Source of the DNA: Heliocidaris erythrogramma
Taxonomy: Eukaryota; Echinodermata; Echinoidea; Camarodonta; Echinometridae
Reading direction: 5' to 3'
Assembly: GCA_025617745.1 (NCBI GenBank)
Contig: CM046855.1
Coordinates: forward strand, 16,275,880 to 16,339,879
Length of the DNA: 64,000 nucleotides
This document shows positions 4,095-64,000 of this stretch, in pieces. Both the position numbers and the translations under genes were made by a program. Below the pieces are notes generated by a model. That model searched no databases, was not told where the DNA came from, and was given only the letters and a program-made list of their open reading frames with translations. The first letter of the stretch is position 1; each line of letters starts with the position of its first letter.

Positions 4095-5155
4095 TGTTCA
4101 CCCGGCGGTCTATATCCAAGAAATGCAATAAATTCAACTCACCGATGTTGGAAAAGATGATTCCAAAAATGAAATCCGTAATTTACTGTCAATTCTCGCG
4201 AAACGAGCTATCGGAGTCATTGTGTACATTTCCTGGTTGCTGCGGGCGCTGACATCTCCCCAAAAGAATTTTTTCGTTAAAAATTTGGTCCCTATCCCGT
4301 ACACGGAAAGTCCCGATTTTCTGTGTGCGCGATCGTAGAGAACGATGTGGACAAAAATTTTATTGGCCGATTTTAGTTATGAATATCCCAAACCCAACCT
4401 ATCTCTATCCACAAAGCAGCAGCTCAAAGTTCCTCCGGCAATCAGTAGTCATCAGAGCACAACTCTTGTGCCAAACATATCCCACTCAAACCAGACTTGT
4501 CACCATCAAGAAGACCACAACAGCTACCTGTCAGCTCTGCTACAAAGAAGAGGAGGATACATTTCACTTTGTGGCATCATGTACACAACTGGAGACACAA
4601 AGACAGGATTTCCTGAAAAAGCTGAGAAGTAAACACCTGCCGGAAGAGATCTTCTCCCTCTATGACCAAACCGAGAGCAGAGCATTTACAAAGGCCATAC
4701 TCTTACCAAGCTCTCTTTACCTCCCTTCTCTGAGCTGAACACAGTTACTCTACTCTTTATCTACAATATTCATATAAACCGTATCTCGTCTCTTTCCTCT
4801 CGCTGAATATAATGATTAGCTGACCTGCTGAATCACATGTACACGCAATAATCTGTTGCTGATCTCCGACAAAAGCGGAGGGAGAACAAGAAGAAGAAGA
4901 AGTCTAAGACATCGGCGGTATGTAAACAACACGCTATCGCGAAACAAATCGGCGGGGATTTCTTCGGTTTTGGGCATGATTTTGACTTCGGATTTTGCTG
5001 GAAATATGGAAAGTTCTTCCTAACAGCCATTTGATGTAGGAGTGAGATTTTTAAGGGCTGAATTTGAAAGCAAGGTATTTAAAATATTTATCTTATTTTC
5101 CCCCCATACCTAAGTACATGCGACAGAAAATACCAACTATTTTACAGTAATGTAG
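4095..5155 (+). repeat. Repeat family A, copy 1 (split by a LINE insertion)
   Basis: Homologous to copies at 11216-11884 (- strand) and 49770-50456 (+ strand). Shared landmarks are 'ttctcgcgaaacgagctat', 'cgggcgctgacatctcccc', 'ggccgattttag' and the terminal 'ataccaactattttacag'. In the intact copies 'gattttag' is followed directly by 'tctaagacatcgg'; here 525 bp of LINE sequence sits between them. The class is unknown: no terminal inverted repeat or poly-A tail was found. Confidence 0.75.
4377..4902 (+). mobile_element. 5'-truncated non-LTR retrotransposon (LINE) 3' end
   Basis: An open frame ending at 4738 carries a C-terminal zinc-knuckle-like pattern (CQLCYKEEEDTFHFVASC), the C-x2-C...H-x4-C arrangement found after the reverse transcriptase in several LINE clades. 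It is followed by about 160 bp of 3' UTR and an (AAG)n tail at 4887-4902. Both edges are defined because family A resumes immediately on each side. The catalytic reverse transcriptase core is absent, so this is a dead 5'-truncated copy. No clear target-site duplication is visible. Confidence 0.65.
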
Positions 5156-18000: not shown

Positions 18001-18219
18001 TTGTACATTGATCATTGCATTAAAATTGGTTACTTTTCTCAGCTTTGTTGGCCCCTTTTTGGTTATGTTTTCAATGCAAATAATCAATTGAATATGAACT
18101 ATTTCCTATTTTGAAAAGTATAAAGAAACTGTGAACTATGTTTTTGTGTATGAATCATGCTGACCTTTCATAATACATGTCATCTTATTTCGTAATATCA
18201 TCAGACCAATTTTTAGCAG
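15066..18219. other. Intronic/upstream stretch, repeats only
   Basis: No splice-bounded coding sequence recognised. It contains a hairpin at 16461-16509 (arms 'gcccaccagccagct' / 'agctggctggcgggc'), CpG-bearing repeat-like DNA at 15.6-16.9 kb, and T/A-rich sequence leading into the RRM exon. The acceptor used by that exon is 'tttttagcag' at 18210-18219. Confidence 0.5.
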
Positions 18220-21200
18220 GCCGACTGTACGTGGGCAGCCTCAATCATAGCACAACCAAGGATGACATTCAAAGGGAGTTCGGCAAATACGGTCATCTCA
18301 CAGATATCTGGATGGCGCGTAACCCTCCAGGATTTGCGTTCGTTGAGTTCGAAACTGCCGGACAAGCAGAGGCAGCACTAAAAGAGCTCAATGGTCGCAC
18401 CTTCTTGGGTAATCGCATTATGGTGGAACCATCTCGTGCCCAGAATGGCCGTGGAGGTCGCGGTGGAGGAAGAGGTGGTGGAGGTGGCGGTGGCGGAGGA
18501 GGAAGATATGACGGCAGACGAGATGGTGACAGAGGAAGAACCGGGGGACCAACTAGATCACCACGAGGCCAATATCGAGACTACCCTCCTAGCGATTATG
18601 GTCGCAGTAGCGATTTTAGTCGCGGTGGCGGAGACTTCGGTCGTGGTGGAGGTGGTGGTTACAGAGATGACAACAGAGGGTCCAGATACAGCGATTCCTA
18701 CAGCTACGGAGATTCAGCATATCGCAGCCGCTCACCAATTCGTCGCAGGTATCGCTTAGTGGATGTGTCAAACTCTATGTTAAACATGAGCGAAAGGGGT
18801 CGATTTATTTACTACATCGCGTAACCCAAAGTTAAGCAAATTTTTGGCTTCCGTCGTATGGAACAGTGTATTACTGTTCTGATGATATTCCAAATTTTAT
18901 AGGATAAAGATAATAAAGCGCATTTTTTTTCTCCTACTCACTTCAGGACGTTTGTCGAGCAAGCGAATCATGAATTGAATGATTCCAAATTACAAAGTAA
19001 AGAGTTAATAATTTTATCTTGGGTTTATTCATAGAAGGTTTGGAATATAAATGAATGACTTTAAACTTCGCAGTAATCGCAAAGTGCTTCGTTCTTCAAT
19101 ACAGCTGTGACGCCAATGAAACTTACAGAGCGCGAGTTTATCCGTCAAAATTGCTACTTGTACACAGAATCGGATAGGGGTAATATATGCATCTTGATGG
19201 ACATAGTTTCTTCTGGAGAATTCTGTGTTCGTAGTTGCCTCAGTATTCGCACTATAGTAGCAGATGTGGAAGCTATCTTGTCGCAATACATTTAGTTCAG
19301 AGCATATGGATACACTACACATAATCGCAGTAATCGCAATTACCCGAAAATCGACCCCTATTTGCTGATCTTCAATATGTCTTTTCTACTAGCGTAGCGT
19401 CTTCTCACTTGATGCAGTTATTTTTATTCAAAGAGCTTCAAGTTTGATTTGATGTTAGACGTCCTCTACAAAAAAAACACTACTTTCTTGGGGTAGAAAT
19501 GGTATACATATACATTCTACTTGCTGACTTACACATGTATCAGAAGTTTTATTGTAACAAACAATAATCTCTTTCTACCACATGTGTTGTTATTGCACGT
19601 GCATTGCAATACAATGTACACATTACCCCAAAATTATTCTGCCTTCTATTGCTGCCGATGTTATCCTTGTTTCTCAAGCATTTGTCTTGTATTAGGTTTT
19701 GTTATTCCGATGGCTAACAAAGGAAAGTATAGAGCATGCAATTCCATTGATTTGATTTATGATAAATTAAATTTCAATCATTATATGAATGCTCAAAATT
19801 ACTTTTCAAAAGTGAAAATAAGAAATAGAAAATATGCATGTTACAATATTTATACAAACAATATGACATTCAAGGTATTATATTGATGTTTCTACTGCAG
19901 AATTTGCAAGATTGCATGTTATTAGCTACATGTGACTGGGTAATATGGGAAGGACTTTTCAGGGACTTTTCAACTTGAAAACAATGATTTTGCAACCAAC
20001 CAGTCATAACGAGTTTCAGAATTCTCTTTTCTGTTTTTTTTTTTGGACTTAGTGTGTTAGTATGTCCTTAATTGTTAGTTACAGGAGATGGCAAATATGT
20101 AATGGTAATGATGAAAAAAGAAAAAGGATAATTTTTATTCCTTCATCGTTCAGATTTTTTTTTCAGATTTATTAGTAATGCTTGGTTTTCAGTTTACTTT
20201 TTTGATTATTTTTATTTATTTATTTACTTTTTGGTTAATTGTTGTTTCAAATTTTGTTTATTGTAATATCTTTATTTCTAGCAATGATTTTTTATTATCT
20301 ATTCTTTTTAAAGCTCCCAACACCCACAATTATTTAGCTTGCATACGTGTAGCAGTGGATATTCTACGTATTTCAAGCACGTGGTCGCTATCGCAAATCG
20401 CATATTGCAGTTGTTTATCACTACAGAGAAGTTTCGCAAGAATTCAGCATTAAGTTCTCTCAATCGCGAAGAAACCTCAGCTCTTTCATTGGGAGGATAA
20501 ATTGAAAACATCAGTTGCTTGATGCAATATGTTGATATCGAGCGATGAGTGATTCTAGATTGCTCATTAATTTCCTTCTGAATCGCACACGCACAACAGC
20601 AGTATCTACGATATCTTGATGAGCGAAGCAAATTATTAATTGACTTTGTAATGGAAGCACCTGATTTGAGCAAATATGTATAATGTACATTTATTTGGTC
20701 AACATACATGTATGTTTGAACCCTGATGCAAATACATATAAATGATATGTAGTTAAAATCACTATTAATTATTCCATTTTGTTGTTCTGTAGGAGTCCTG
20801 CCTTTGCTGCTCCCCCTCCTGCAAGAGGCCGTGATTATGGTGGGAGGGATTATGGTGGTGGGCGTGACGTAGGCAGCAGAGATATGGGTGGCCGTGATTA
20901 TGCTAGACGGGAACCAAGAAGAGACTATGAGCGTGAACCTAGAGACTACGCTCCAGGTCCCTCTGCTGGGTAAATACCTTTTTTTTTGGTTATTGTCAAG
21001 TGTAAGTAAGCAATCTGAATAACAAAGGTGCTTTTGCTTGTAATGTTGTTTATTGATGAGAAAGCCTTTGGAAAAGCCAAAAGTGATCTGTTATTAGTTA
21101 ATTTTCTTGTTTATTTATAAACAAATCCCATTGGCCCATGCGCTGTATTCTCGAAAGTGGCAAAAGTTAAGCTTGGCTTAACTTAGGCCACTGATTTATG

Positions 21201-26525: not shown

Positions 26526-29500
26526 ATGGCTGATCAAATATCAGATGTGAGTGTTTCTTTCTGTTCCAGTTCGAAATATGTGACACCTTTCCGTCTACAT
26601 TATAAGCAGGTAAGTATTATAACTATTTAATCTAAATCGACAGGTTTACAAAGTCAACAAAAGCCCTTGCTGACAGTGGCTAATAATATAAGCCAGGTCC
26701 TGCCTTTCAATTATGAGACAGCGGCAGCGGTTCCCTGAGCTTGACTTCCCCGGAGCTCGGCGGGTAGAGTTTGATGGGGGAGGGGGTAGCAAAACGTTAC
26801 AATCGGTTTGATGGAGTCTCGATGTCAGACCCAAGTTTTCTGTATTTTTTTCTATTTTTGTGTGATTCTGATGTGTTACTGTGTCATGCAAGTGTGACTG
26901 ATTTACCAAGAGTTATGAATTTACCTTTACTTATATTATTATTCCTTTGGCAGTTTGGCTATAATATAGCTAACACTAACAGTTAATAGTAATATGCCCA
27001 GTAATCCTCAAATTGGCAAGAATCCTACCTAGGATATTAAAAAAAAAAACCCAGCAGAACGGAGGTATAGATAGGATTTGTATGGAGCAGAGGTATATAC
27101 TAGTGCAGCAAGATCAGATTCGCTGTCAATTGCTTGTGGTTTAGTGGTAAAGGCGTGTAGTCAGACTGTCAGAGTATTGTCTTTCTAATTCTACAATTCT
27201 CTTTTCAATTCTCTCAATTCTACAAATACAATTCTACATTCTCTTCTCTAATTCTTTTTTTTTTTTTTTTTTTAAAGTAAAAACGGAGACGAATGCATGT
27301 ACACGTAGTGGTAGAGTAGTTAAACGTCCTATACGCCCACATCAGCAAGCAATGGTCATATTGACCATTAGAATCATATACATGTGTGTATACTGGGTAT
27401 TGGGGATACAGTTACTGCGGCAGCCCGAACACGTAGTGTTCGGGCTGCGCTTCGCAGTCCTTTGATCGCATGGATGTCACATAATTACAAGGTCGTTTGT
27501 CAAAATGATAGCCATGAAACATGAAATCAGTTGATTTTAGGCTATTTTAGGTACTTACAATACTTTACGATTGACTGTCGTCTTTCTTTTCAATGAGGAT
27601 GATACAAAAAAGGCATATTTATCTCCAAGAGCCTGTAGTAAAAACTTCCGAAAGTCGGTGTTTTGCTTGCAATGCGCATGCGTCAGCAGCTCAATTATAA
27701 TACAGACAAGAAGGGAGGATTATGAATATTCATTAAGACGAGCTTGAGCGAGAGCGCTAGATCTATACGCTAGCGATCGGCGGATTACAGTGGGTATATG
27801 AATATTCATTATTCCATTGACGAAAACTATGCCGTCATTGTAATAAACATTCATAGGCGCATGCGCAAGTGCCTATTTTCAATTTGGCTTTAACAACATG
27901 GCGAATGGGACTGGTTTCGAAAATTGAGAGTAAAAAGTGACATTCATCGATTCTACACATTTTTTAGGAAAAGCTGATTTGCGTAAAGTCTGTTTAGGTA
28001 AGTGGCATCGTATATATGATACTTTAATTAAAAAATAATAATTACATGGCCATTTTTTAAATGGTCATTTGAACATTGGTAGATTGTGAGACCCACCGAA
28101 TCGTACTGGTTTCACTCAGGACGCTGCCACTTCGTGGCAGCGTCCCGGGGCTAGGGATACAGATGTAATTTTGTTTGAAATTGATGTTTTTGTGGGCAAA
28201 CTGATACTTAAGTATCATTCTTTAGATTTTAAGTTATCAGTTCGTTAAGATACAAAATGTAGAAAGTTATAAAAACTTACATTTACAGCCCTCTTTTTGG
28301 TACTTGTTACCCACACCTCCATACGGATGACGACTGCTCTCAATAATGTTGCGCACTAGTGAGGCCGCTCTACATGGTTACGCACCGTAGATACGTACGC
28401 AGAATGTTACGCACACAAGCTATTCTACGAAGACCTGGAAGGGCCAAACTGACGACGTAAAAAAATAAAAAATATTACGTACGTACGTAGTAATTATTAC
28501 GTACGTACGTAATATTTTTTTACGTCGTCAGTTTGGCCCTTTCAGGTCTTCGTAGGAGATCGACGAACCCATCGCGCCGGTACTACTACGAGCGCTGAGG
28601 GCTCCCTTCATCATAATCGTGAAAAATACAAACTGGATGCTGACGGGACAGTCTCGATAGCAGTTATCGACAAAAAGGACCCAAAATTTCAGGAAACCCT
28701 CTTCAAAGGTCACAAAACAACCTGGTAAGTTTTAATCATCTATTATTCAATATAATTCTTTGGATGTAAGTAAACTGCAATATATGATATTCAATTAAAT
28801 ATAGCCAAAAATGCACAGTGATGCAGTTTAGCCATGGGATGTGTGTTGGCTGCGTTACTACACAGTCGGCAATGGCGTGTACCTATGAGTGTATACGCCT
28901 TGATTTGTAAATGTGTTTATTTGTATATTATATTTTCACGTGTATATGTACATTATCACTTATGTTTTTGTAATCATATATTGTAAATATGTTTGTACTC
29001 TCATACCCCGAGAGGGGGTCGATAGAGTCAATAAAATCTTACAAATCTGCGCTCGTGTTTAAGGTCCCGGGTTCGAATCCCACTCTTTCTTGCTGATAAT
29101 TTTTTTCAGTTATGAATTGATAACGAAAACGTTTATTCCGTTATAAATAACTGAATTATAACAATGAAAACCAAGAAAATTGACTAATTATTCACTTGTT
29201 CAGGCGGATTTAATGGCGGCTGGGCATAATAACGACTTTGGCCATTCCTTTTTTGTATTCTAGGTCAGTTATAAGTAACTGTTACTGTTAGTTTTTTATT
29301 ATGATTTACAATTACAGATATCATTAAGTAATGACATTGCCATGACAATACTTTTTTAGGGCTGACATTAATTCACATCAGTCAGCTCAGGGAGCTGTAA
29401 ATAGGAGTGGAAACAAGCTGCTCTCCTTTGATCCCATGCTCGGTGCCGCCGAAAAGTTTTGCGCTACTCCGCAACTGTTACCAGGTGATCGCATGGATGT

Positions 29501-32500
29501 CACATAATTACAAGGTCGTTTGTCAAAATGATAGCCATGAAACATGAAATCAGTTGATTTTAGGCTATTTTAGGTACTTACAATACTTTACGATTGACTG
29601 TCGTCTTTCTTTTCAATGAGGATGATACAAAAAAGGCATATTTATCTCCAAGAGCCTGTAGTAAAAACTTCCGAAAGTCGGTGTTTTGCTTGCAATGCGC
29701 ATGCGTCAGCAGCTCAATTATAATACAGACAAGAAGGGAGGATTATGAATATTCATTAAGACGAGCTTGAGCGAGAGCGCTAGATCTATACGCTAGCGAT
29801 CGGCGGATTACAGTGGGTATATGAATATTCATTATTCCATTGACGAAAACTATGCCGTCATTGTAATAAACATTCATAGGCGCATGCGCAAGTGCCTATT
29901 TTCAATTTGGCTTTAACAACATGGCGAATGGGACTGGTTTCGAAAATTGAGAGTAAAAAGTGACATTCATCGATTCTACACATTTTTTAGGAAAAGCTGA
30001 TTTGCGTAAAGTCTGTTTAGGTAAGTGGCATCGTATATATGATACTTTAATTAAAAAATAATAATTACATGGCCATTTTTTAAATGGTCATTTGAACATT
30101 GGTAGATTGTGAGACCCACCGAATCGTACTGGTTTCACTCAGGACGCTGCCACTTCGTGGCAGCGTCCCGGGGCTAGGGATACAGATGTAATTTTGTTTG
30201 AAATTGATGTTTTTGTGGGCAAACTGATACTTAAGTATCATTCTTTAGATTTTAAGTTATCAGTTCGTTAAGATACAAAATGTAGAAAGTTATAAAAACT
30301 TACATTTACAGCCCTCTTTTTGGTACTTGTTACCCACACCTCCATACGGATGACGACTGCTCTCAATAATGTTGCGCACTAGTGAGGCCGCTCTACATGG
30401 TTACGCACCGTAGATACGTACGCAGAATGTTACGCACACAAGCTATTCTACGAAGACCTGGAAGGGCCAAACTGACGACGTAAAAAAATAAAAAATATTA
30501 CGTACGTACGTAGTAATTATTACGTACGTACGTAATATTTTTTTACGTCGTCAGTTTGGCCCTTTCAGGTCTTCGTAGGAGATCGACGAACCCATCGCGC
30601 CGGTACTACTACGAGCGCTGAGGGCTCCCTTCATCATAATCGTGAAAAATACAAACTGGATGCTGACGGGACAGTCTCGATAGCAGTTATCGACAAAAAG
30701 GACCCAAAATTTCAGGAAACCCTCTTCAAAGGTCACAAAACAACCTGGTAAGTTTTAATCATCTATTATTCAATATAATTCTTTGGATGTAAGTAAACTG
30801 CAATATATGATATTCAATTAAATATAGCCAAAAATGCACAGTGATGCAGTTTAGCCATGGGATGTGTGTTGGCTGCGTTACTACACAGTCGGCAATGGCG
30901 TGTACCTATGAGTGTATACGCCTTGATTTGTAAATGTGTTTATTTGTATATTATATTTTCACGTGTATATGTACATTATCACTTATGTTTTTGTAATCAT
31001 ATATTGTAAATATGTTTGTACTCTCATACCCCGAGAGGGGGTCGATAGAGTCAATAAAATCTTACAAATCTGCGCTCGTGTTTAAGGTCCCGGGTTCGAA
31101 TCCCACTCTTTCTTGCTGATAATTTTTTTCAGTTATGAATTGATAACGATAACGTTTATTCCGTTATAAATAACTGAATTATAACAATGAAAACCAAGAA
31201 AATTGACTAATTATTCACTTGTTCAGGCGGATTTAATGGCGGCTGGGCATAATAACGACTTTGGCCATTCCTTTTTTGTATTCTAGGTCAGTTATAAGTA
31301 ACTGTTACTGTTAGTTTTTTATTATGATTTACAATTACAGATATCATTAAGTAATGACATTGCCATGACAATACTTTTTTAGGGCTGACATTAATTCACA
31401 TCAGTCAGCTCAGGGAGCTGTAAATAGGAGTGGAAACAAGCTGCTCTCCTTTGATCCCATGCTCGGTGCCGCCGAAAAGTTTTGCGCTACTCCGCAACTG
31501 TTACCAGGTGGTATTTAAAGAGCGCATGAATTATCAGGGGGTCGTTTCATCAAATCAACTCCATGCCACTCATAACTGTTGTCGGCGATCTACGGAAATG
31601 TCATGGACCTGAAAAACTGTTTCACGAAGACATGATAAACGACAACTCAATGATATCGATACTCATCGGCGAAAAAACATAGTCTATATCACAGTTCATT
31701 GGAAATTACCCAAACAGATTTTGAGGCTCAGTTTTCCCCAAACTATTCCAAAATGTAAAAAATGGCAGCGAAGATGAATGCTAGTGATACAAACATCCAG
31801 TTTACATGAAAAGATGCGTTTCTTATGGCATCTTAGAATTTATAAAATTGATTTTGCGATGTACGAATCAAGATTTGTAGGTAAGAGGATACCGTAATAG
31901 ACTAATTACGGAAAGAAGACCCAAATCGTGTTCATTTTAGAGAAAATGATTAAATTAAGATATCTTATGGCCCAATTTTAAATATTTATTCATTAAAAGA
32001 TACATATATCATTCATGTCAAAGCATTGCGTGAAAACGGGGAAAAAAGCGAAAATACATACAAAAAGTCATGATAAATTGTCGTCGTTCACATGGGTCTG
32101 TATATACAGACTGTTCGGTTTTCGATGCTGATTCTATGGTAGACGGATGTGGGTATTTTTAATATTAATCTCATTTACTTGTTGGGGGGTCAAGAAGCCA
32201 TAAAAACATATTGTTCGTTTGTACAATATTATAATACGGACATTAGTAATACTATCTGGTAAAGGAATGATAAAGGATAGTGCTTGGAGATCAGGAAATA
32301 AATGTTCTCTTAAGTTACATTTGTTATTTTTTCGCAGCCCATAGACTAACTAAAAGCTGGCTTGTGATGGCGTTCTAAAAAGATATGACAGGTCTGGAGT
32401 ACCGACAAGTCACTTGTCAGCGAAGTTGTCGCTGGTCTTGGCAAAGACGGCTTTGTGAAACACTTAGCGGACAAGTTGAGCGACAGCGTCGAGATGTTGC

Positions 32501-35500
32501 TAGTCTTGTCGTTATGACGGTTTGATGAAACCCCCAGGGTTTCAAACTCCTACATCAGAAAATGGTATCTCAGCAGCTGTTCGCTGTCCCTTTCAATGAT
32601 TTCTAATCAATTGTCGATTGTGTTATGAGTTGAACGAGCGAACGGAAACTTATGTAATTTCATACCTTTTATCAACTCCAAAAATACGAAATGCGCGCAC
32701 TAGCGAAGTACTTTATATCGAATATTGTAGATCATGGATTAAATGACGGGACATTGAAACGACCGGAGATGACCGGAATATCCTAAACTATTGAGTTTTT
32801 GTGAGGATTTAATTTTCCTTTCACCGACGCTGGCACAAAAATTATAGGAAAAGCGGAGTACTAATTTTGAAAAATTGTTCGATGCACTGTTCCCAACACA
32901 ATCCCTACATAAATTTGACAGTTTACACTGAAATTTGGCTGGTAATTTGAAAGAGCGGCACCACGCATGGAACCTCAAAGCCAAGTGGAATGTTACAAAT
33001 CCATTGTTAAGCTTTAGAACTCTTGCATGCATAATTTTACAAGATTTTCCACTCCTTCTATTTACAGCTCCCTGGTCGGTTTTAAAGCACTCACAAATAT
33101 GCGTGGTTAATATAGATAACCTCGTACTCCACACCTTCATACCACGGAGAATTGCCTCCCATAATGAGTGTGTAATTCTTCAGCACATATATGTGTAATG
33201 AAGGAGCGAGGTTACCAGCCAAAAACAGCTAGAAACAGCCAGAAAATCAGTTGATCATGGTGATAAAGATCCTATTGAAGAATTTGGCTTGAAACTGGCT
33301 TTTCTATCATCCTAAAATTTAGAAGGAAGTATTTTCTCAAAGTTTTGCCTATTTATATTACACCAGTGTTTTAACCTCTTCAACTTAGAGTTATGACCAC
33401 CGCCGAAATTGACACAGGCTCACGCAGTGAAGTTTCCATGAGTGGCTTCAAAGTAAAGATTTGCATTAATTTATTGCCTTACGTGTGCGGAGCTCGAGGA
33501 CAAGGGCATCGATATCTGAAAAGTTTTGATGGTTTATTTTACCTGACTGCTAAGAAAGCATGTGTATGCTTGTAAGTAAGCAACCAGGGGACCGACGGCT
33601 TTAAGTCCTCCCCGAGGATAATTTAACTTCAGAATATGTAGAACCCAGGGCAGCGTTTCATCAAACGGTCATAAGTACAAGTTCACCAACATCCCATTGA
33701 AACGCGTGTATTAAAATTAACATGCTTTTCAATGGAATGTCGGCGAACTTGTACTTAAAACAAATTTGCATACATGTAAACCACTGAATCAGATGACTTT
33801 AGATGCCAAAAACAAAGTGCTTAGCTTATGGTCCCTCCATCATATCAATCTAAATCTGCTTTAAAATACAATACATGTATCAGGAAAAATAGGATTTATA
33901 TTTGTGTTCTTAGACTATATACATTGCTGCTCCTTTTTCTAAATTCTTCTGCCAAAAGTTTGTTGGAAATAATTTTCACTGGAAAATTTTCAGTTCATCT
34001 GGACTCATGTACATGTAGTCAGGAGACTTGGATAAGATGCATTCATGCATATATATTTCTTTATCGTGTAATTACACTCCAGTCCCAGATATTTGTTTTA
34101 TTGTTTCATGTCATGATAATGTAGACAACTAGACATTAGCCAAATCAGGTTCAGTGACATGAAAACATGTCATGGTGCAGTGATACTTTGTTTAATCGGG
34201 CAAGTGGTGAAGCACACAACATAACAATATACACCATATTATTTCCCCACTGTAATGTTAGCTAATGTCTGTGTGTAGATGGTTCTGACTTCTGTTTGAA
34301 ACTTTGAATGCATTGACATGGCATCTTTAGGCAAATTCATGGTACAAATTTTCTATTTTGTCTTACTTTGATATTTGTCTTTTGAACGCAGGATGGTGTT
34401 GGAAAGACTTGGGACTACATAAAAGGACATGACAGGTATGCACTGTAAACTTGGAAGGCTTGTACCAAGCACAGGTGTAGACACATGATTATCCATTGTT
34501 AGTGAGGGGGGGGGGGGGGGATGATCTATTCATCATCCCAGTGGTGGATCTAGCCTGGTAAGACACAATACATTCTAGGGGCCCGTCATTGTGCACAAAC
34601 AAAGCGAGCCTATAGAATGTATTGTCTAATCCGGCTAGATCAGCCACTGCATCATCCCCCCACTAACAATAGAAAGTGTGTTCGTATCTAAGCCAATGGT
34701 ACCAAGTGATCCATGCCATTTTCTTTTTCATTTGGATTTCATTTCTTAGGGATGACAATCATGACACAGTGTTTGCTTTGAGATGTTGGCAATTTAGCAT
34801 ATAAATGTTTTTATACAGTTATTGACAAAACTTTTTTTACAATTAAGAAATTATTCATGAAGTATGTTACTCTCATTTGATACAAGTTGAGTGCCTTTTT
34901 TAATGAAATTTTGTCATATCTCCAAATAATGAAAAGGAATGTCAGTCCAACACCTTTCAGTATTATTTTGGATGTCACTATTTATTTTTTTTTAGGTTTG
35001 TGTAACTGTATATAAAAACTCTCAAAAAAGTGCTGCAAGTCAAGTTTTAGCGTTGATATCTCTCTTGTTACAGTATATTGCTTGAATTTGGTAGCATTGA
35101 AAAGCATGTTTATTCCCCTTTACAATGATATGCCCCATTGGTACTGATTATCATAGAATGTGCATGCAGTACATCTAAATACAGGGCCAAGTCAAAAGTG
35201 AATTGTTGCAAAATGCATTGTTATTGCCAACAGTGAATTTTCCCTTATTTTGTGATGTTTGGAGGATGAATTTGTGTTTTGAGTGATGTTGAGGTGGTCA
35301 TTCATGAATACAATGATTTTTCTTATTTTGTTTAGAAAATGAAGTGAGTCAAAAGTGAAATTTTGCAAAATACATTATTGTCAACAGTGAATTCTTCATT
35401 TGTTTGGAGAATGGATTTTGTTTTGAATTATGTTGGGGTTGCCCTTCTTGAAGCGCAATGTTGTTTTCACCTTTATTTTGGAAGATGGCATGTGTTTTAA

Positions 35501-37219
35501 TCAAGTGATAGTGGGATTATAACTTTGTTTGCATTTCAGACAGACGCAAAGTACTTTTCATCTTCCAAACAAAAGAAGAAAACATTGCATTCAGGAATGA
35601 TCACCTCAACATCACACAAAACACAATCCATCCTCCAAAGAAAGGAGAATTCACTATTGACAATAACAATGCATTTTGCAACATTTCACATTTGACCTGG
35701 CCGCATATTCATTTGTACGGTACTGCTTATTCCATTATTACATAATCAGTACAAATGGGGCATCATTCTAAAGGGTAATAAACCTGTGTTTCAAGGATAC
35801 TAAATTCAAGTATGATGATATATAAATGCTGTAACCTAAATTGCAGAACTTTTTTGAGAGTTTTATATTTATTCAGATTTTTCAGAATAACAGCTGATTG
35901 TGCATTACACTTTACTCGCTTGTTCTGTGTGTTCTTTTACAGCATTGCAATTCTGTTATACAACAAGGACAGGGATGTATTTCCAGTTGTAAAGCAATTC
36001 AGACCAGGTAAATCATTTATCATTATCTATATTTATCATTTCTACATTTTTCTCCAAATTTACAGTGTACAAAGCGATTGAAAAACTATGTATAGTATAA
36101 TTGAACAACTGCATTTTCACCTTATCCTCTTCAGCACATTAAGATTTGTGAATTGTAGGAAAAGGAAGTCTTTTGGAAATTTTTTTTGAATATCAAGTAT
36201 CAATTTTGGCTTTGAAATGTACATCAGAAGTAGGCATTAAACTATCTGACCGGTATTTTTTCACTAACTCTTCTAACAATTGTGTCTTTCTTTCTTTAAT
36301 AACTGCATGACTTAAATGTTTGTTTTTTTTCGCTCATTTAGCGGTGTATGCGGCCAAAATCCAAGCGTTCACAGATGGACAGACCGTGGACACAACCAAG
36401 CATAAAGGACAGGAGGGGATGACCCTTGAACTTTGTGCAGGGATCATGGATAAAGACAAAGATGTCAGGGAGATGGCTCAAGCAGAGGTCCTAGAAGAAA
36501 CTGGTTACAAGGTTCCACTGGATAACCTCAAGAAAATAACCAGTTTTAGGTAAGTTTGTTTCTTTTAACAGATCATTTAGCCAAACATTGAAATATTGCT
36601 TTCAGTTTTCTCATTTTGGGTCAACAAAAAAACAAAAAAAATTAATCAAAATAGGAGGAAGCAAGATACCGCAAGATACCTCATAGATCCTCTATAACAT
36701 GTGCATATATCCTGATATAAATAACTTATTACCCCCTCTCCTGATAAATGGACATTATTGTATAAGAAAGGATGTGTTAAGAAAATCCTTTATTTTGATC
36801 GTGCTAAACAAGGCCTTTAAATAGAAACATTTCTGGTGCATTTGTACTTTGGTACTTGAACATATTGCTGTTGTAGATGAACAAAAGATTGAGTTTCAAT
36901 AAGCTTATTTCCAAATAATAGTTTGGTAAGTTCAGTTAAGTGACATAGTGTGTATGTTCTGTTTTCTAGATGTGGAGTAGGTACAGAGGGATCCCATCAG
37001 CATCTATTTTATGCTGAAGTTACCGATCAAATGAAAGTCAGCTCTGGGGGCGGTTTGGTGGAAGAAGGAGAAATGATTGAGGTCATTGAACTGAGTGGCC
37101 AGGAGGCCATGAAGTGTATTATGGATGAGAAGATTACCAAACCACCGGGAATGATGTTTGCATTCACATGGTTCTTTTTTATGAAAGACAAAGAGGAGAC
37201 ATTACTTGTTACAGAATGA
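26526..37219 (+). CDS. NUDT14: NUDT14-like UDP-sugar diphosphatase (Nudix hydrolase)
   Basis: Five exons: 26526-26609, 34392-34435, 35943-36007, 36342-36549 and 36970-37219; GT-AG borders and phases all agree and give 216 aa (human about 222). The start is set by alignment: MADQISDVSVSFC then YVTPFRLHYKQ matches the human N-terminus in length and text. Exon 3 gives SIAILLYNKD and VVKQFRP; exon 4 AVYAAKIQAF, MTLELCAGIMD and the Nudix-box core EVLEETGYK. The usual Arg of REUXEE is replaced by Ala (AEVLEE), which is unusual but the human protein also departs from Arg here. The last exon carries LFYAEVTDQM and GGGLVEEGEMIEV. The family hydrolyses UDP-glucose and ADP-ribose-type substrates in the cytosol as a dimer. 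The 7.8-kb first intron holds the 2-kb tandem duplication; a foldback precedes exon 3. Two extra last-exon copies follow. Confidence 0.93.
26610..27462. other. Start of NUDT14 intron 1, with a tRNA A-box-like fragment
   Basis: 27140-27165 reads 'gtggtttagtggtaaaggcg', which resembles a pol III A box (TGGTTTAGTGG) as found at the head of tRNA-derived SINEs; no matching B box follows within normal distance. A T run lies at 27256-27275. No gene seen. Confidence 0.4.
27420..27448. repeat. Second copy of the 13-bp hairpin, at the duplication edge
   Basis: GCAGCCCGAACAC, loop GTA, then its reverse complement: the exact reverse complement of the hairpin at 5228-5256. It ends 15 bp before the left border of the 2,023-bp tandem duplication. 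Confidence 0.8.
27857..27866. promoter_or_regulatory. NRF1-like GCGCATGCGC upstream of predicted gene
   Basis: Palindromic core 32 bp before the ATG at 27898, with a second TGCGCATGCGTC at 27673-27684. Repeated at 29880-29889 and 29696-29707 in the second unit. Similar sites precede the SR-like and WDR43 starts. Confidence 0.4.
27898..29484 (+). CDS. Predicted four-exon gene of unknown family (copy 1)
   Basis: Candidate exons 27898-27913 (ATG, Kozak aacaacATGG), 27968-27997, 28556-28724 and 29360-29484 have AG acceptors (ttttttag, cttcgtag, ttttttag). Donors are GTTTCG (weak), GTAAGT, GTAAGT and GTGATC (moderate). Phases agree at all three internal junctions, giving 113 codons that begin MANGTGKADLRKVCLGDRR, continue EKYKLDADGTVSIAVIDKKD, FKGHKTTWADINSHQ and end LLSFDPMLGAAEKFCATPQ. 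I do not recognise the protein. Exon 3 could alternatively start at 28546. An NRF1-like GCGCATGCGC lies 32 bp before the ATG. The last exon ends in phase 1, which does not fit NUDT14 exon 2 (phase 0), so this is not an alternative NUDT14 start; it would be a nested gene whose 3' part is not identified. Splice consensus plus phase are the only support. Confidence 0.35.
28119..28145. repeat. 12-bp hairpin with TTC loop (copy at 30142-30168)
   Basis: GGACGCTGCCAC, loop TTC, then its complement. Same geometry (12-13-bp perfect stem, 3-nt loop) as the hairpins at 5228 and 27420, but a different sequence. Confidence 0.7.
28425..28555. repeat. 131-bp near-perfect hairpin (MITE-like), copy 1
   Basis: The arms 'ctacgaagacctggaagggc' onward and its complement ending at 28555 pair over about 60 bp with one mismatch and a short A/T indel. 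The centre holds the self-complementary 'tacgtacgtacgta'. The last bases of the right arm (cttcgtag) are the splice acceptor of candidate exon 3. Confidence 0.85.
29065..29090 (+). other. tRNA B-box-like motif (copy at 31088-31113)
   Basis: 'cccgggttcgaatcccac' matches the T-arm/B-box GGTTCGAATCC with a paired GGG/CCC stem. No acceptor stem, D arm or A box in the correct positions was found, so this is a tRNA or SINE remnant rather than a tRNA gene. Confidence 0.45.
29921..31507 (+). CDS. Predicted four-exon gene of unknown family (copy 2)
   Basis: Exact counterpart in the second duplication unit: 29921-29936, 29991-30020, 30579-30747, 31383-31507, with the same splice sites except the final donor, which becomes GTGGTA because the duplication border falls inside it. 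If the duplication is real, the two copies could be two genes, or one transcript using repeated exons. Confidence 0.3.
30448..30578. repeat. 131-bp near-perfect hairpin, copy 2
   Basis: Duplicate of 28425-28555 within the second 2,023-bp unit, identical as far as read. Confidence 0.85.
31510..33179. other. NUDT14 intron 1, repeat-like without gene
   Basis: Contains 'gtttcatcaaa' and 'tttgatgaaacccccaggg' words (31530, 32520) that mark the ends of a dispersed element family, but no clean inverted pair was delimited. The antisense frame at 32739-33140 has no splice or homology support. Confidence 0.45.
33180..33445 (+). repeat. Dispersed repeat family B, copy 1
   Basis: Homologous to 48847-49115: shared 'gataaagatcctat', 'ctatcatcctaaaat', 'tagaaggaagtatt', 'cctcttcaacttagag' and 'gtgaccaccgcc'-type words. 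About 260 bp; class unknown. Confidence 0.75.
33671..33760. repeat. Short foldback fragment
   Basis: 'ataagtacaagttcaccaac' at 33671 pairs with 'gaacttgtacttaa' at 33745-33758, and 'cattgaaacgcgtg' pairs with 'catgcttttcaatg'. Arms about 38 bp. Confidence 0.65.
34495..34670. repeat. MITE with inverted ends (176 bp)
   Basis: Ends ATTGTTAGTG / CACTAACAAT; the inner parts also pair ('cagtggtggatctagcc' with 'ggctagatcagccactg'; 'acaatacattctagg' with 'cctatagaatgtattgt'). It lies 60 bp after NUDT14 exon 2. Confidence 0.8.
35011..35867. repeat. Large foldback just upstream of NUDT14 exon 3
   Basis: The left end TATAAAAACTCTCAAAAAAGT pairs with the right end at 35849-35867. The inversion extends inward for roughly 350 bp per arm (e.g. 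'atgccccattggtactgatt' versus its complement near 35740-35765; 'aaaatgcattgttattg' versus 'caataacaatgcatttt'). TA lies at both edges. The right end is 75 bp from the exon 3 acceptor. Confidence 0.85.
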
Positions 37220-37324
37220 TCTGATCTGCGATAGATGGCTTCAACATGAAACTAATGTAGAAATGAAATTTTGTTGGGTTCATTATTTTATTAACCAGAA
37301 AGTAATTCTTGATTGGTAACTCAG

Positions 37325-37432
37325 CTTAACCATTTGTCAGTCTTTCAGCTAATCAACTGATGTACAGCATGATAACACCTTAACTGTTTGTCAGTCTCTC
37401 AGCTAATCAACTGATGTACAGCCTGATAACTT
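37325..37432. repeat. 54-bp tandem duplication between NUDT14 exons a and b
   Basis: 37325-37378 and 37379-37432 are near-identical ('cagctaatcaactgatgtac' in both). It lies in the 3' UTR of exon a. Confidence 0.85.
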
Positions 37433-37613
37433 TCGGTGTATATGTGTATAGGATATTCTGAGGGGAAAGGTGTTTTAAAATGGAAATAAGGTGTAGTCTG
37501 TTTTAGAATTTATGAAATATATATTTTGGCCAATGAGATTCTATTCAGTTTTCAATGCAGCTTTGTAGTTAATGTGCAAAGTACGGTAAATCGTATTGAA
37601 CATTCATGTACAG

Positions 37614-37842
37614 GACTGGAGTTGGTGTGAAGGGAACTCTGCAGACTCTGTTTTATGCTGAAGTTACTGATCAAATGAAAATCGGTTCTGGTGGGGGATT
37701 AGTGGATGAAGGCGAGAGGATAGATGTCATTGAACTGAGTAGCCGGGATGCTTTGAAGTGCATTATGGATGAGACAATAACCAAACCAGTGGGAATGATG
37801 TTTGCGTTTACATGGTTCTTTTTTATGAAAGACAAACAATAG
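37614..37842 (+). CDS. NUDT14: NUDT14 alternative terminal exon b
   Basis: Acceptor 'catgtacag' at 37605-37613, then an open frame of 75 codons plus stop in the same phase (1 nt completing the split Arg codon) as the exon at 36970. It reads TGVGVKGTLQTLFYAEVTD, GGGLVDEGERIDVIEL and ends in FTWFFFMKDKQ. It differs from exon a at many positions, yet keeps the catalytic-region GGGLV-D/E-E and the FAFTWFF core, so it looks under constraint. Splicing from exon 4 to this exon would give a 209-aa isoform. It could instead be the last exon of a collapsed duplicate gene, but no copies of exons 1-4 were seen nearby. Confidence 0.8.
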
Positions 37843-38087
37843 AGTTTAATTGCAGCTGAATGGTCAGCAATACATTCCTGAAACATGGAAAGGAATATGG
37901 TTAGTTTCATATTTTTTCTTTATCAGAAAGTCTCTTTTGAAGTTTGTAAGCAATAGGGATGGGAGGGGATTCAAATTTGCCAACAAGCTTACAAGCTAAC
38001 AAGCAAAGAAGTCTCAATGCGTTTGCCACCTTGGTTTGAAAAAAATTGAATCTTGCATTTCAAGATGTGGCAACAGACATATACTAT

Positions 38088-38189
38088 GAACATCCCTTCA
38101 CTGCTATTATGTAAAATAAGTAGAACAGGTGAATATGCATGTGACACCTGTTCTACATATTTTTACATAATAGCAATGAAGGGATGTTC
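38088..38189. repeat. Near-perfect 102-bp hairpin MITE
   Basis: Ends GAACATCCC / GGGATGTTC. Arms of about 45 bp pair with few mismatches ('gctattatgtaaaa', 'gtagaacaggtg') around a short central loop 'aatatgcatgtga'. Confidence 0.9.
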
Positions 38190-38474
38190 TATTGTCAACC
38201 AGAGCAAGTGTGGGAGGTACAATGAGGAGCTGTATATTTTGTCCGCTTCTTTGTTCGCCATGTTCATAGTGATATTTCATTTGAGGGTGTCACTCCACTC
38301 ACATTCCTGCTTTCTAGCTTCGCTGACTGAATTTATTGAAAGCATCAATTCAAAGGTGTGCGCATATTCATGAGTACAGTATGTTTTTCATGTATTGGGG
38401 CATTCCATGAGGTGGGCAAATCAAAATATGACAATGTCCATGTAACCCTGGTATTCGATCTTCTATTACACATA

Positions 38475-38620
38475 TAGAGGGTTCTCACGGCAGCCATACA
38501 AGCTGGGGGACATAACAATAAAAAACCTGTGCATCAGACTATGAAAAGCCATTGTTGTCATGGTCTCGTGCACAGGTTTTTATTATATCCTCCAGCATGG
38601 CTGCTTCTGGGAACCCTCTA
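38475..38620. repeat. Hairpin MITE with TAGAGGGTTC ends
   Basis: Left TAGAGGGTTC, right GAACCCTCTA; inner 'aaaaaacctgtgca' pairs with 'tgcacaggttttta'. TA at both ends suggests a Tc1/mariner-type target (inference). Confidence 0.85.
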
Positions 38621-39043
38621 TAAGATGAAATCTGTTGAAGATTTTAATGCAATGAATTATAGTAGTGCCCTGCCCAATTTCACTCGTTTCAGTTTGTACT
38701 CTTGTAAAGCTTTGCTAAATACACATTTCTTTTTACCAACGTTAAATGTACATCACATTTATATAATATTACATAAACTGTGGGTCTATAAATATTGATT
38801 CACCATGATGATAGACTACTTCTATACAAAGATGCCTATTTTTTTTTATGTTGAAGTCAATTTTAGCAAGCATTGTTATGGTTGATAGGAGACAAAGCTT
38901 CTCACTGGTATGTCACAAAAATTGACCCACATTTACGGATTGACTCATGAAGTTATTGATTTTGAAGTGGACAAAATCATTTTGAATTAGGCACCGAGTT
39001 GCTCTTTAATACTGGGTTATTTATTTGTCACATTCATGCGCAG

Positions 39044-39284
39044 GAATGAAGTTGGCGTGAATGGAGCATTGATGACACTGTTTTATGCTGAAGTTACCGA
39101 TCAAATGAAAGTCAGTTCTGGAGGTGGATTAGTGGATGAAGATGAGCAGATAGAGGTCTTAGAACTTTCAAGCAAAGATGTAATGAGGTATATGATGGAT
39201 GAAAATGTTGCAAAGCCTGTTGCCATGATGTTTGCTTTTACTTGGTTTTTCTACATGAAAGGTAAAGAAGAAATGTACACTTGA
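39044..39284 (+). CDS. NUDT14: NUDT14 alternative terminal exon c
   Basis: Acceptor 'catgcgcag' at 39035-39043, then 79 codons plus stop in the same phase. It reads NEVGVNGALMTLFYAEVTD, GGGLVDEDEQIEVLEL and ends FTWFFYMKGKEEMYT. It is the most diverged of the three copies (Gly to Asp in GGGLV-x-E-x-E, and NE in place of the CG or TG that opens the other two copies). The intron text just before exons b and c is shared ('cattcatg'), so these two probably arose from one duplication. An isoform of 213 aa is predicted. AATAAA lies at 39525. Confidence 0.8.
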
Positions 39285-40549
39285 GGAAGATTCATGTCAT
39301 AATAGATCATTTTTATTGAAATATAACGTATATGTAATGAGAAAAATGAGGCAGGGTAGTCTTTGTACAAGCAAGCATTTTAAAGTTGATTTTCTGCGAC
39401 ATTATCCCCAGTGGGAATTTTCACATTCAGTGTCTGCACAGTGTACAAACAAAAGTGGCAGACCTTGATGAGGTTAATTGTTATTAAAGGCCAAATCTCA
39501 TTACACACACAGTTCACAGGACCAAATAAATCACTACAGATATTACAGACAGGATATTACATTTTGTGAAAAGTGATGTTTCATTTTAGGCCTACATGTA
39601 AGTGCCATCCTGTTCTGCTTGTGGCCAGTTTGTTGGTCTTGTGAAGTTCTGAAATGTCTCGGGTGCAATTGTTATTTTGGACCTCTGTTGCTGTAACAAA
39701 ATGTAGGAATGTATGAATGTAGAAAAAGAACGTACATGTACATTAAAAAAAAATCCTTCCATATAAAAATCTCAGTTATAGGAATTCTTTTAACAAATTG
39801 ATTCTTTTCATCACAAAGATTCGATATGTCATATGTCAATTTCAATTTAAGGAGAGAATTTACAGTATTGCATTACAGTATCAAAAGGTATTCCTTGTTC
39901 ATAGTGCATACTTTATACATGTTTTTGTCAAATATAACTATTTGCGAATAATTGAACGACTTTCATCCACCTCAAAGTTAAATTCTCAGGAAAGGGTTTG
40001 GTTTCATTGCTTCATTGAAACATGTAAATTAAAAGTAAATGTATCAGCGAGCAATTTTTATAACATAGTCTGGATTATTGATACATCTTTTGGAGTGTTA
40101 TGCTATTTTGAAGTGAAACAAATGTCATTAAAAAAAAAAAAATTACTTGAAATAGATCATGACATGAAAATAGAGAATGTTCTTTTGTATTTTCATGAAA
40201 CAGAGTTTTGTGATATTTTTATGAAGAAGTATTACAATACGGCCTCTGAATATGTCAGCACATACATACATACATGTAACACATTCTATATACATGTACA
40301 TGTACCATGGGCGATATTCTGAAAATTATGTCAGTTTATATTAGTACAGGAATATGCTGCCAAGTATGTGCAGACATTAACCAGTTATTATACCTAAAAT
40401 GTAAGTCTTCAGATACATGTACCATCCCTTAACATGAAAAAGTAAGTGACTGTATTACTTCAGAATGCAAGCATGTTTTAATACCTTTCATTTTCCTACT
40501 GTAACATGTGTACCAGGCTAGGGCATCTTTAGCCATCTTGAAAATGATG
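39285..40549. other. NUDT14 3' UTR/downstream; AATAAA at 39525
   Basis: AATAAA at 39525-39530, 241 bp past the stop of exon c, is a fair polyadenylation signal. The 174-codon open frame at 39798-40322 is AT-driven with no recognisable motif and no splice context; it is left uncalled. Confidence 0.5.
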
Positions 40550-43922: not shown

Positions 43923-46900
43923 TCATTTCTTCTTCTTTGATTCAGTGGGAGTTGGCGAGTCTTCATCTTCAAATACAAAATAGTATCCCTGCAGCATCAT
44001 GATGATAGAGACACCTGCAGATAAAGGGAATAAAACAAAAGATTATAAGTTAAATAATGGTTTAAGTTTTACTTTATTCATACTTCAGAGAGATCATCAA
44101 CATTATTGTTGATGTTTATACAGTATTTCTCTTGCTATAAACTAATAGGGCTTTAACTTTTGTTGATACTATCATGTAGATATTGTTTGGCTGGTTCTAA
44201 CAATTTGAAGATTGTTACTATTACAGCTATGTTTTCACTTGTGAAAATAACACAATGTAAACTCAGTCCAGAAGGTAATGGGAATTCTTTTAAATTAATC
44301 TATATCTGACACTATGGTACTAAGTATTAAAAAAAAACAGTTGACACTTCTTATTAATGACTCAAAAACTATACCTTGTATCAGACTGAGGTTTTTACCT
44401 TGTAAAGTTGAAGGATGTAAAATCTATTGGGAGCAAGTTTTATGACATTTCTCAGAATACTTTTCTTTATATATTTAATTAGATTTTTTCACTTTTTAAA
44501 ACATCAAGGCCACAAAATTTGTGTGTATCGGTAATTAATTCAGAGCACAACAATTGTCATTGTGTCATGCAGCTGTCATTTCTGCCAACCTTTTGCTGTC
44601 CAGTGTCATTAATGATTCATGACTGCGTTAAAAAGGTGTTCTGGAGTTTCAGCTGCAACACACAATTGCAGCTGTTGTGTTTTGAATTAATCAAAATGAA
44701 TTAATCATCGATCAAAATTGTCCACTGTATTTTTAGCTCACCTGAGCCTAAGGCTCGAGTGAGCTATTGCGATGGAAATTTGTCCGTCGTCCGTCGTCCG
44801 TTAACTTTTTACATTTTCATCTTCTTCTCCAAAACCCATGATCGGAATTCAACCAAATTTGGTAGGAATCATCCTTAGGGGTAGGGGACCCAAAGTTGCT
44901 AAAATGGTACATGCGGCCCCCAGGGGGGCCCAGGGGGAGGGCCCCCAATTGTAAAAGCTATGTAAATTTCAAACATCTTCTTCTCCAGAACAAGGTATAG
45001 CTCAGACTTGGTATTGTGTATGGAGATACCTCTATAGATGAAGAATGAATGTTGTTCACAAAATTTCTCTGAGTGGCCCTATAGGGGCCCTGTGGGGGTA
45101 ACATACTGGAGGGGGGGGGGGGGAGCTGCCAGGCAAAATGTACATTCTCATCTTCTTCTCCAAAACCCATGATCGGAATTCAACCAAACTTGGTAGGAAT
45201 CATCCTTAGGGGTAGGGGACCCAAAGTTGCTAAAATGGTACATGTGGCCCCCAGGGGGGCCCAGGGGGAGGGCCCCCAATTGTAAAAGCTATGTAAATTT
45301 CAAACATCTTCTTCTCCAGAACCAGGTATAGCTCAGACTTGGTATTGCGTATGGAGATACCTCTATAGATGAAGAATAAATGTTGTTCACAAAATTTCTC
45401 TGAGTGGCCCTATAGGTGCCCTGTGGGGGTAACATACTGGAGGGGGGGGGGGGGGGGTTGGGGGCGCTGTCAGGCAAAATGTACATTCTGATCTTCTCCA
45501 AAACACATGATCGGAATTCAACCAAACTTGGTAGGAATCATCCTTAGGGGTAGGGGACCCAAAGTTGCTAAAATGGTACATGTGGCCCCCAGGGGGGCCC
45601 AAGGGGAGGGCCCCCAATTGTAAAAACTATGTAAATTTCAAACATCTTCTTCTCCAGAACCAGGCATAGCTCAGACTTGGTATTGTGTATGGAGATACCT
45701 CTATAGATGAAGAATGAAGGTTGTTCATGAAATTTCTCTGAGTGGCCCTATAGGGGCCCTGTGGGGGTAACATACTGGAGGGGGGCGCTGCCAGGCAAAA
45801 TGTACATTCTGATCTTCTCCAAAACACATGATCGGAATTCAACCAAACTTGGTAGGAATCAACCTTAGGGTTAGGGGATCCAAAGTTGCTAAAATGGTAC
45901 ATGTGGCCCCCAGGTAAATATGTAAATTTCAAACATCTTGTTCTCCAGAACCAGGAATAGCTCAGACTTGGTATTGTGTATGGAGATACCTCTATAGACG
46001 AAAAATGAAAGTTGTTCATGAATTTTTTTCTGGGTGGCCCTATAGGGGGTCTGTGGGGGTAACATACTTGAGGGGGGGGGGGGGGGTGGGGCAAGTTGTC
46101 CGCCATCCATAAACTTTTTACATTTTCAGCTTCTCCAAAACACATGATTGGAATTTAACCGAACTTGGTAGGAAGCTCAGACTTGGTATTGTGTATAGAG
46201 ATACCTCTATAGATGAAGAATGAAAGTTGTTCATGAAATTTTTCTGGGTTGCCTTATAGGGGCCCCTGCACCAGATGTGAATTGATCCACCTCAGGTGAG
46301 CGTCGTGCCCCCTGGGGCTCTTGTTTAACACCTATTACAAAAAGACTTCTTATCATTACTGAAAATCAACAAAGCAATGATTTTTCTAAGAAATTTTCTG
46401 GGATGCCTCTCTTTATAAAAATGCCAAATAATTCAAATTCTTTTACATCCATCTCTTAATATTAAATAGACATAGTATATCCGATTATCATTATCTATCA
46501 AAGAAACAAAAAGGGGTTTCAGATAGTTATTTTTCTTTGCGCCAGAAGGGCCTTAATCAAGTTATATTGAGCCAGAAAGCTGCCAATGATTGAACTCGAA
46601 GCTCAGAATGACCATTTTGGTTGTAGATGTAGATTATATATAGATTATAATAATAATAACATGTAGATTATAATAATATTCATGGTTCTTTGCTGACAAT
46701 GGGACCAACTAGGACCAAATGAGCTTAACCCTCAATAGCCCCTGGACATTTTTGGCGATAATTTGTTAACGCGAAAAGATCTCGTGCTGAAATTTCATGA
46801 CTTTTTCTTTCACGTCTCGCGCACATTTTAAGATCCTATTTGTGAAAATCGGGGGTACGGTTGCGGAGATATAGCACATATTCATGACCAATGTCACAAA

Positions 46901-63531: not shown

Positions 63532-64000
63532 GTAAATACATGGCTCAAGTATGGAAAGAGAATAGTAGATGTTTTCAATAGCAATCGCTTTAATACAAGA
63601 ATGTGAAAACAATATTTGCTGTCCAAGAACTGTTAGTATTATATCACTACACATAGTGAGTAGGAATTAAAAACTTACAATATTTACATACTTGCTGTCA
63701 ATAATAAACAGATGTAGTTCATAAAGCTTTGTGTCTAATCACTCAAACAGCAAAATTGAAAAAGCTTAGCATGAAGTAAAAAATAACCAAGAACCAGAGA
63801 GAAATGATTGGAATCTATTCATGTGCAATTTGTGTGATTGGCATGTTATGTTGAGCTTCACATTTTGATAGTTGGTGATAAAGTGATCTCTGAGGAATTA
63901 CAAATGAGAGTAAATTACCTTTAAAAATCGTATACATGCTTGTATGACCTTTATACGTGATATGCTGACATCTACATCTTATCTCCTTGTATACCTATGT
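63532..64000. other. Start of WDR43 intron 13, no feature seen
   Basis: Donor GTAAAT at 63532; AT-rich sequence to the window end. The acidic C-terminal exon(s) of WDR43 would lie beyond. Confidence 0.6.

Follow-up and report, generated by a model that had tools for sequence, protein, structure and literature searches.

A NUDT14 gene with three terminal exons

How many enzymes might a gene encode when its last coding exon is present three times? This question is raised by the NUDT14 gene (uridine diphosphate (UDP)-sugar pyrophosphatase, Nudix superfamily) of the sea urchin Heliocidaris erythrogramma, which lies on the forward strand of a 64,000-nucleotide stretch of contig CM046855.1 (hereafter the window, to which all positions refer). 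Here, exons 1 to 4 are followed by three terminal exons, designated a, b, and c. We consider it very probable that this is a single NUDT14 gene whose three terminal coding exons arose by old tandem duplication and are mutually exclusive. Judging from the sequence, the animal is probably able to make three enzyme forms, with a common front half and a differing substrate-recognition part.

The terminal exons occupy positions 36970..37219 (a; class CGVGTEG, acceptor TAG, stop TGA), 37614..37842 (b; class GVGVKG, acceptor CAG, stop TAG), and 39044..39284 (c; class NEVGVNGALM, acceptor CAG, stop TGA), all on the + strand. Exon 4 (36342..36549, +), which contains the Nudix box and is followed by a GTAAGT donor from 36550, ends with the bases AG of a split Arg codon, completed as AGA by exon a and as AGG by both b and c. 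Further upstream are exon 1 (26526..26609, +; MADQISDVSVSFCSSSKYVTPFRLHYKQ), with donor GTAAGT and 26/28 identical residues (92.9%) to isoform X1 of Strongylocentrotus purpuratus by tblastn, and exons 2 (34392..34435, +; donor GTATGC) and 3 (35943..36007, +; donor GTAAAT), both found as tblastn matches. Joining exons 1–4 to a, b, or c yields proteins of 216, 209, and 213 residues, respectively, each with a single stop, at its end. The blocks LFYAEVTDQMK, GGGLV, and FAFTWFF are present in all three.

Exons 1–4 occur once each in the 64-kb window and the last exon three times, as determined by tblastn searches in which the queries were window exons a and c and the protein of S. purpuratus; neither tblastn nor blastn turned up any additional last exon or any repeat of exons 1–4 in the window. 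As adjacent homologous exons of the same phase with single-copy flanking exons, a, b, and c are tandem duplicated exons. This layout agrees with the original prediction, made from the letters alone, which had described three consecutive in-phase open last exons with AG acceptors, a common split Arg codon and their own stops, the three conserved blocks, and no extra copies of exons 1–4.

We propose that splicing links the exon 4 donor to any one of the three acceptors. Since each copy ends in its own stop, exclusivity would follow from the layout and would need no special mechanism. All three exons would be used in this animal, and the resulting forms would differ in substrate recognition or regulation. 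Selection has retained the copies.

The same exon classes in other sea urchins

The strongest support for alternative last exons, and what appears decisive at the level of sequence, are isoform-named entries of other urchins that fall into the same classes. The protein search returned 1939 matches, of which the best 120 were listed; the collection groups proteins at 90% identity, which may conceal isoforms. Among the matches listed were seven NUDT14-named clusters, from S. purpuratus, Lytechinus variegatus, Lytechinus pictus, Diadema setosum, and Diadema antillarum, and their C-terminal parts sort into the window classes. In L. variegatus, isoform X2 is of class a and X3 of class b, with 134/134 residues equal ahead of the exon. 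In S. purpuratus, X1 is of class b and X3 of class c (133/134 residues equal ahead of the exon). The L. pictus entry is of class b and D. antillarum X2 of class a. The D. setosum entry (TGVGVKGTLMT) falls on the b/c side and has 132/134 residues in common with D. antillarum ahead of the exon.

Window exon a is identical to L. variegatus X2 at 66/75 residues and to D. antillarum X2 at 58/75. Window b matches S. purpuratus X1 at 65/75, L. pictus at 64/75, and L. variegatus X3 at 63/75, and window c matches S. purpuratus X3 at 68/75. For a, b, and c alike, the best same-class match across species (66, 65, and 68) beats the best match to a neighbor in the window (57, 57, and 51). Two further entries were recorded. 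P0123 carries a class-a exon whose residues beyond MMFGF no longer follow the class, suggestive of a frame break or a read error. P0122 carries a class-b exon with a W where S. purpuratus X1 stops.

In the tree, four a rows are split from b, c, and D. setosum by one branch (97/96), and the two c rows are paired (100/98). Class b does not form a single clade, D. setosum lies near c (78/90), and support bearing on the age order of b and c is low. The split between a and b/c appears, from the class motifs and the two Diadema species, to predate the point at which Diadema parted from Lytechinus and Strongylocentrotus. That parting dates to the order of 200 million years ago.

Divergence and constraint among the copies

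Over 75 aligned codons, residue identity is 57 for a–b, 49 for a–c, and 51 for b–c. Nei–Gojobori estimates of non-synonymous over synonymous divergence (dN/dS) are 0.139/0.666 = 0.21 for a–b, 0.248/2.43 = 0.10 for a–c, where dS is near saturation, and 0.185/1.19 = 0.16 for b–c; dS by LWL85 is 0.51, 1.28, and 0.96, respectively. Codon-bootstrap 95% ranges of the uncorrected ratio pN/pS are 0.15–0.53 (a–b), 0.18–0.43 (a–c), and 0.18–0.39 (b–c), and the contrast between synonymous and non-synonymous differences is significant (Fisher p <= 1e-5). The copies are under purifying selection, with dN/dS of 0.10–0.21 as measured pairwise among the window copies. Ratios this far below 1 speak for the original prediction, which had named dN/dS among the copies as a check.

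Simulations of unselected drift (2000 per setting) at 0.33 substitutions per site kept on average 49–50% of residues (97.5th percentile 60%), and less at higher rates. Against this expectation, the observed identities of 57, 49, and 51 out of 75 make the copies alike beyond chance. All 75 codons stayed open in 13–17% of runs at 0.33 and in 3.7–7.9% at 0.6 or 1.2 (3.7–17.2% overall).

Similarity among the copies ends at or near the coding edges, both by blastn and with the flanks in fixed register; the blastn match between a and b runs slightly beyond the stop of a (36973–37221 versus 37617–37865). No clear flank similarity was found in fixed register, apart from a 14/20 block adjoining the acceptors of b and c. 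There, the pre-acceptor stretches of b (37600..37613, +; ACATTCATGTACAG) and c (39030..39043, +; ACATTCATGCGCAG) have 12/14 bases in common. Upstream of the exons, weak 20-base blocks were limited to one at 12/20 for a–b and one at 10/20 for a–c. The residues TFMYR translated ahead of the exon in P0122 are compatible with the b pre-acceptor stretch in another contig.

Synonymous divergence is lower between a and b (0.67) than might be expected of a split that seems old, a hint of gene conversion between these two copies. A separate observation concerns the LFYAEVTDQMK block (37004–37036, 37648–37680, and 39078–39110), in which 8/10 degenerate codons for the same residue are identical in all three copies, compared with 10/28 elsewhere (Fisher p 0.027 for a block picked post hoc; scan permutation p 0.034). 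This synonymous conservation may reflect a splicing enhancer, conversion, or chance.

What the terminal exon encodes

Translated from exon 2 on, the three forms scored 112.6 (a), 114.4 (b), and 111.6 (c) bits against the TIGR00052 profile (cut-off 79.55), and 22.9, 21.6, and 21.7 bits against PF00293 (cut-off 21.1). By these scores, all three belong to the NUDT14/YffH-AdpP Nudix subfamily. The N-terminal domain and the Nudix helix, which binds metal, are common to them, and the last 75–82 residues differ. All three copies have E at positions 138 and 140, as do 100/114 and 114/114 of the other rows, respectively. By position, and by analogy with the enzymes described in PMC4629899 and PMC3655063, these are the putative catalytic loop glutamates.

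Predicted models were made of two relatives of the window forms, one of class a and one of class c: the S. purpuratus c form (P0006; mean predicted local distance difference test score 89.4) and the L. variegatus a form (P0005; 88.5). The top structure match of both was human NUDT14, with template modelling scores to 9gzv_A of 0.88 (P0006) and 0.89 (P0005). In these models, the exon starts at the end of strand 128–134 and spans loop 135–142, strand 143–151, the GGG loop to about 169, a strand up to residue 176, and the final pair of helices. By position in chain order, the exon is predicted to carry L8, L9, and the helices of the C-terminus.

These elements have described roles in a Bdellovibrio nucleoside diphosphate (NDP)-sugar hydrolase. 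According to PMC4629899, L8 is termed the specificity loop and contacts the substrate in the site of the other subunit, replacement of the L9 glutamate by glutamine abolishes activity, helix 3 has a role in sugar recognition, the nucleoside is bound by the N-terminal domain, and the metal by the Nudix helix. Likewise, in the Streptococcus pneumoniae UDP-X diphosphatase, UDP-glucose hydrolysis requires a loop glutamate outside the Nudix box (PMC3655063).

Where the classes differ

We compared the classes over nine rows, namely a from the window, L. variegatus, and D. antillarum, b from the window, S. purpuratus, L. variegatus, and L. pictus, and c from the window and S. purpuratus; D. setosum, P0122, and P0123 were left out, and class c comprised two rows. 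Nine exon positions (2, 5, 6, 10, 31, 39, 46, 50, and 60) are constant within and distinct between classes. Four of them fall within exon residues 1–10, with a chance of 0.015 that is soft, the ten-residue limit having been set post hoc and c having two rows. Position 6 is E in a, K in b, and N in c, and the putative L8 motifs are acid (TEG), basic (VKG), and neutral (VNG). Position 10, at the end of this loop, is Q in a and b and M in c; it is M also in D. setosum and Q in 103/114 other family members.

The original prediction had singled out a change of GGGLV-EEGE to DEDE in exon c and suggested an altered substrate preference. Exon c does read DEDE; the first E to D change is present in b as well (DEGE), and only the G to D change, at exon position 33, is special to window c. 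This D is alone among the echinoid rows, with G in 107/114 others. DEDE is not a class feature, because S. purpuratus c reads DEGE, and both glutamates remain. We rejected DEDE as the key functional change in c, and the proposed shift in preference is not supported. As in window c, a D stands at the aligned position of Escherichia coli NudK (D150) in the HMMER alignment, with a two-residue gap just ahead of it; shifting that gap places E-D-E in both stretches. The loop at exon residues 1–10 is a better candidate for a functional difference between the forms than DEDE. Another residue alone among the echinoid rows is the H of window a at exon position 11, where T occurs in 89/114 others.

Splicing and 3′ ends

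Within the 20 bases ahead of the exons, pyrimidines number 14 for a, 11 for b, and 13 for c, compared with 12, 15, and 17 for exons 2–4 and a mean of 10.2 for 192 random intronic AGs. Acceptor a lies closest to exon 4 and has the most pyrimidines, and a may therefore be the default splice, with b and c needing help. Between the first base of a and the last base ahead of c, there is no donor of the form GT[AG]AG[AGT], a pattern that leaves weaker donors aside; one is present after c, at 39598.

A pattern scan identified a candidate poly(A) signal for b, AATAAA at 38517..38522 (+), between b and c and inside the inverted repeat 38473–38622. After c, the scan identified ATTAAA at 39483 and the first AATAAA, another candidate signal, at 39525..39530 (+). 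The 3′ end of a could be set either by the weak signal AATATA at 37516 or by a 3′ untranslated region (UTR) that extends through b and c. In the latter case, acceptor competition alone would decide which exon is used.

Competing RNA structures that steer exon choice were considered and gave no signal in a crude duplex-energy test on one genome, in which pairing between the intron after exon 4 and sites before each copy stayed within the range of 60 shuffles each (z of −0.4, −1.3, and 0.7). Self-complementary repeats that can form hairpins lie between b and c (38088–38189 and 38473–38622), and a 54-base tandem duplication with 92% matches lies between a and b (37325–37430). About 8 kb upstream of NUDT14, an open reading frame (18174–18824, +) encodes an RNA recognition motif (PF00076, E 4.6e-18) followed by a Gly/Arg-rich, RS-containing tail, and looks like an SR-type splicing factor.

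Weighing the explanations

The copies might all be used and yet encode equivalent enzymes, the array being regulatory only, through expression or the 3′ UTR. This is a serious possibility, if somewhat short of an even chance. The catalytic-loop glutamates are kept in all copies, 38 degenerate and several M/W codons encode the same residue in a, b, and c, and secondary structure agrees to within one or two residues between the models of the a and c forms. Opposed to equivalence are the nine class-distinct positions of the nine-row comparison, of which four fall in exon residues 1–10, a loop that binds substrate in bacterial relatives (PMC4629899).

At the other end, and by analogy with those relatives, the exons could be substrate-specificity cassettes, in which a constant nucleoside- and metal-binding half is combined with one of three sugar-recognition and gating halves, each with a class-specific L8. 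We regard this extension as tentative and somewhat unlikely. If true, one echinoid gene would give rise to several NDP-sugar hydrolase activities. Mixed dimers would add hybrid sites, because L8 reaches the active site of the other subunit in the bacterial relative (PMC4629899).

Three alternative terminal exons in use remain our preferred reading, and several observations weigh against it. Window a is nearer to S. purpuratus b (60/75) than to D. antillarum a (58/75), and with hemichordates and amphioxus as the outgroup, the a rows fail to form a single clade; the proposed age order of a versus b/c consequently rests on the class motifs more than on the tree. The original prediction had asked for the same triplet in other echinoids; what was found is a and b in L. 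variegatus, b and c in S. purpuratus, and a in D. antillarum, and among the matches listed from the collection clustered at 90%, all three classes occur together in no species but H. erythrogramma. The isoform status of the entries is the sources' own label, one being marked PREDICTED. Furthermore, the b acceptor is no richer in pyrimidines than random intronic AGs, and the pattern scan found neither AATAAA nor ATTAAA between a and b. T145 and G167 (P0005/P0006 numbering) are invariant in a 28-protein alignment (28/28 each), and window a has H at the former and window c has D at the latter. Because of these departures, some relaxation of window a and c is possible.

The last of these points, together with the weak pyrimidine tract at b and the class-a exon of P0123, which looks frame-broken beyond MMFGF, would fit a scenario in which only one or two copies are in use and the others are slowly decaying relics of the duplication. 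We find this improbable. All three copies are open with intact sites, and classes a, b, and c are each found in at least one other species. By our reasoning, one freely drifting copy would raise pairwise dN/dS to about 0.5 or more, as opposed to the observed 0.10–0.21; the upper bound of 0.53 for a–b pN/pS is compatible with 0.5, for that pair alone. Finally, misassembly can produce tandem sequence, but it is a very remote prospect that the copies are artefacts of assembly, allelic variants, or pieces of distinct complete genes, considering that exons 1–4 are single in the window, that dS of at least 0.5 by every method giving a value and unrelated flanks make the copies too divergent for alleles, and that the L. 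variegatus isoforms have an identical first part.

The part of the original prediction that stands is thus that of alternative terminal exons with one Nudix box and differing C-terminal halves, on the basis of the isoform entries and dN/dS; its DEDE-based inference on substrates does not.

Relation to known systems

Tandem exon swaps have been described mostly in ion channels and the like. A duplicated last exon of NUDT14 is not known in vertebrates. Homology to human and mouse NUDT14 (UDP-glucose pyrophosphatase; PDB 3q91, 8otv, 9gem, 9gzv, and others) extends from exon 2 almost to the C-terminus, with E values of 6e-39 for the b form and 2.9e-35 for the c form. The closest counterparts are the urchin isoform entries (S. 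purpuratus X1/X3, L. variegatus X2/X3, and D. antillarum X2), which, like the window forms, have the same N-terminal part and an a, b, or c end. They differ from the window in that, among the matches listed, no other species shows all three classes, and they were compared as proteins.

More distant relatives are the bacterial NudK (acting on GDP-mannose), AdpP (ADP-ribose), and Bdellovibrio NDP-sugar hydrolases, with which the window forms have the TIGR00052 subfamily in common, scoring above its cut-off. For such bacterial relatives, a swapped dimer with L8 and L9 loops is described in PMC4629899. They differ in being 15–25% identical to the modelled forms (rows listed) and in being single-form genes.

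Tandem duplicated exon substitutions are a described class of event. In PMC9741552, the C-terminus is changed in 77/236 human events, and the duplicated regions overlap predicted small-ligand-binding residues less than expected. Similarly, the Drosophila gene pip has clusters of tandem terminal exons (PMC9013439). Both resemble the proposed NUDT14 arrangement, with homologous adjacent exons of which one is used per transcript. The NUDT14 exon differs from the trend in PMC9741552, since by position active-site loops lie inside it.

We found no publication on the NUDT14 exon triplet in the open-licence literature. The type of event is already described and the target is unusual, and public annotation of other urchins already lists such isoforms. 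If the half of a small metabolic enzyme that bears the substrate and catalytic loops is exchanged in a conserved swap, this would be a case of splicing that tunes an active site. In addition, the array amounts to a natural set of chimeras for locating the loop that sets the substrate choice of NUDT14.

Other features of the window

An open reading frame at 63238–63606 (+) matches Utp12 below threshold (25.1 bits against a cut-off of 31.5; E 2e-5). At 4253–4738 (+), a weak match to zf-RVT that does not reach the cut-off (23.4 bits against 27.5; E 9.8e-5) is probably a retroelement remnant. A long inverted repeat at about 30455–30590, with the core ACGTACGT, was read by eye. Two tandem arrays are also present, at 44823–45914 (331-base unit, 3.3 copies) and at 62576–63245 (170-base unit, 4.0 copies).

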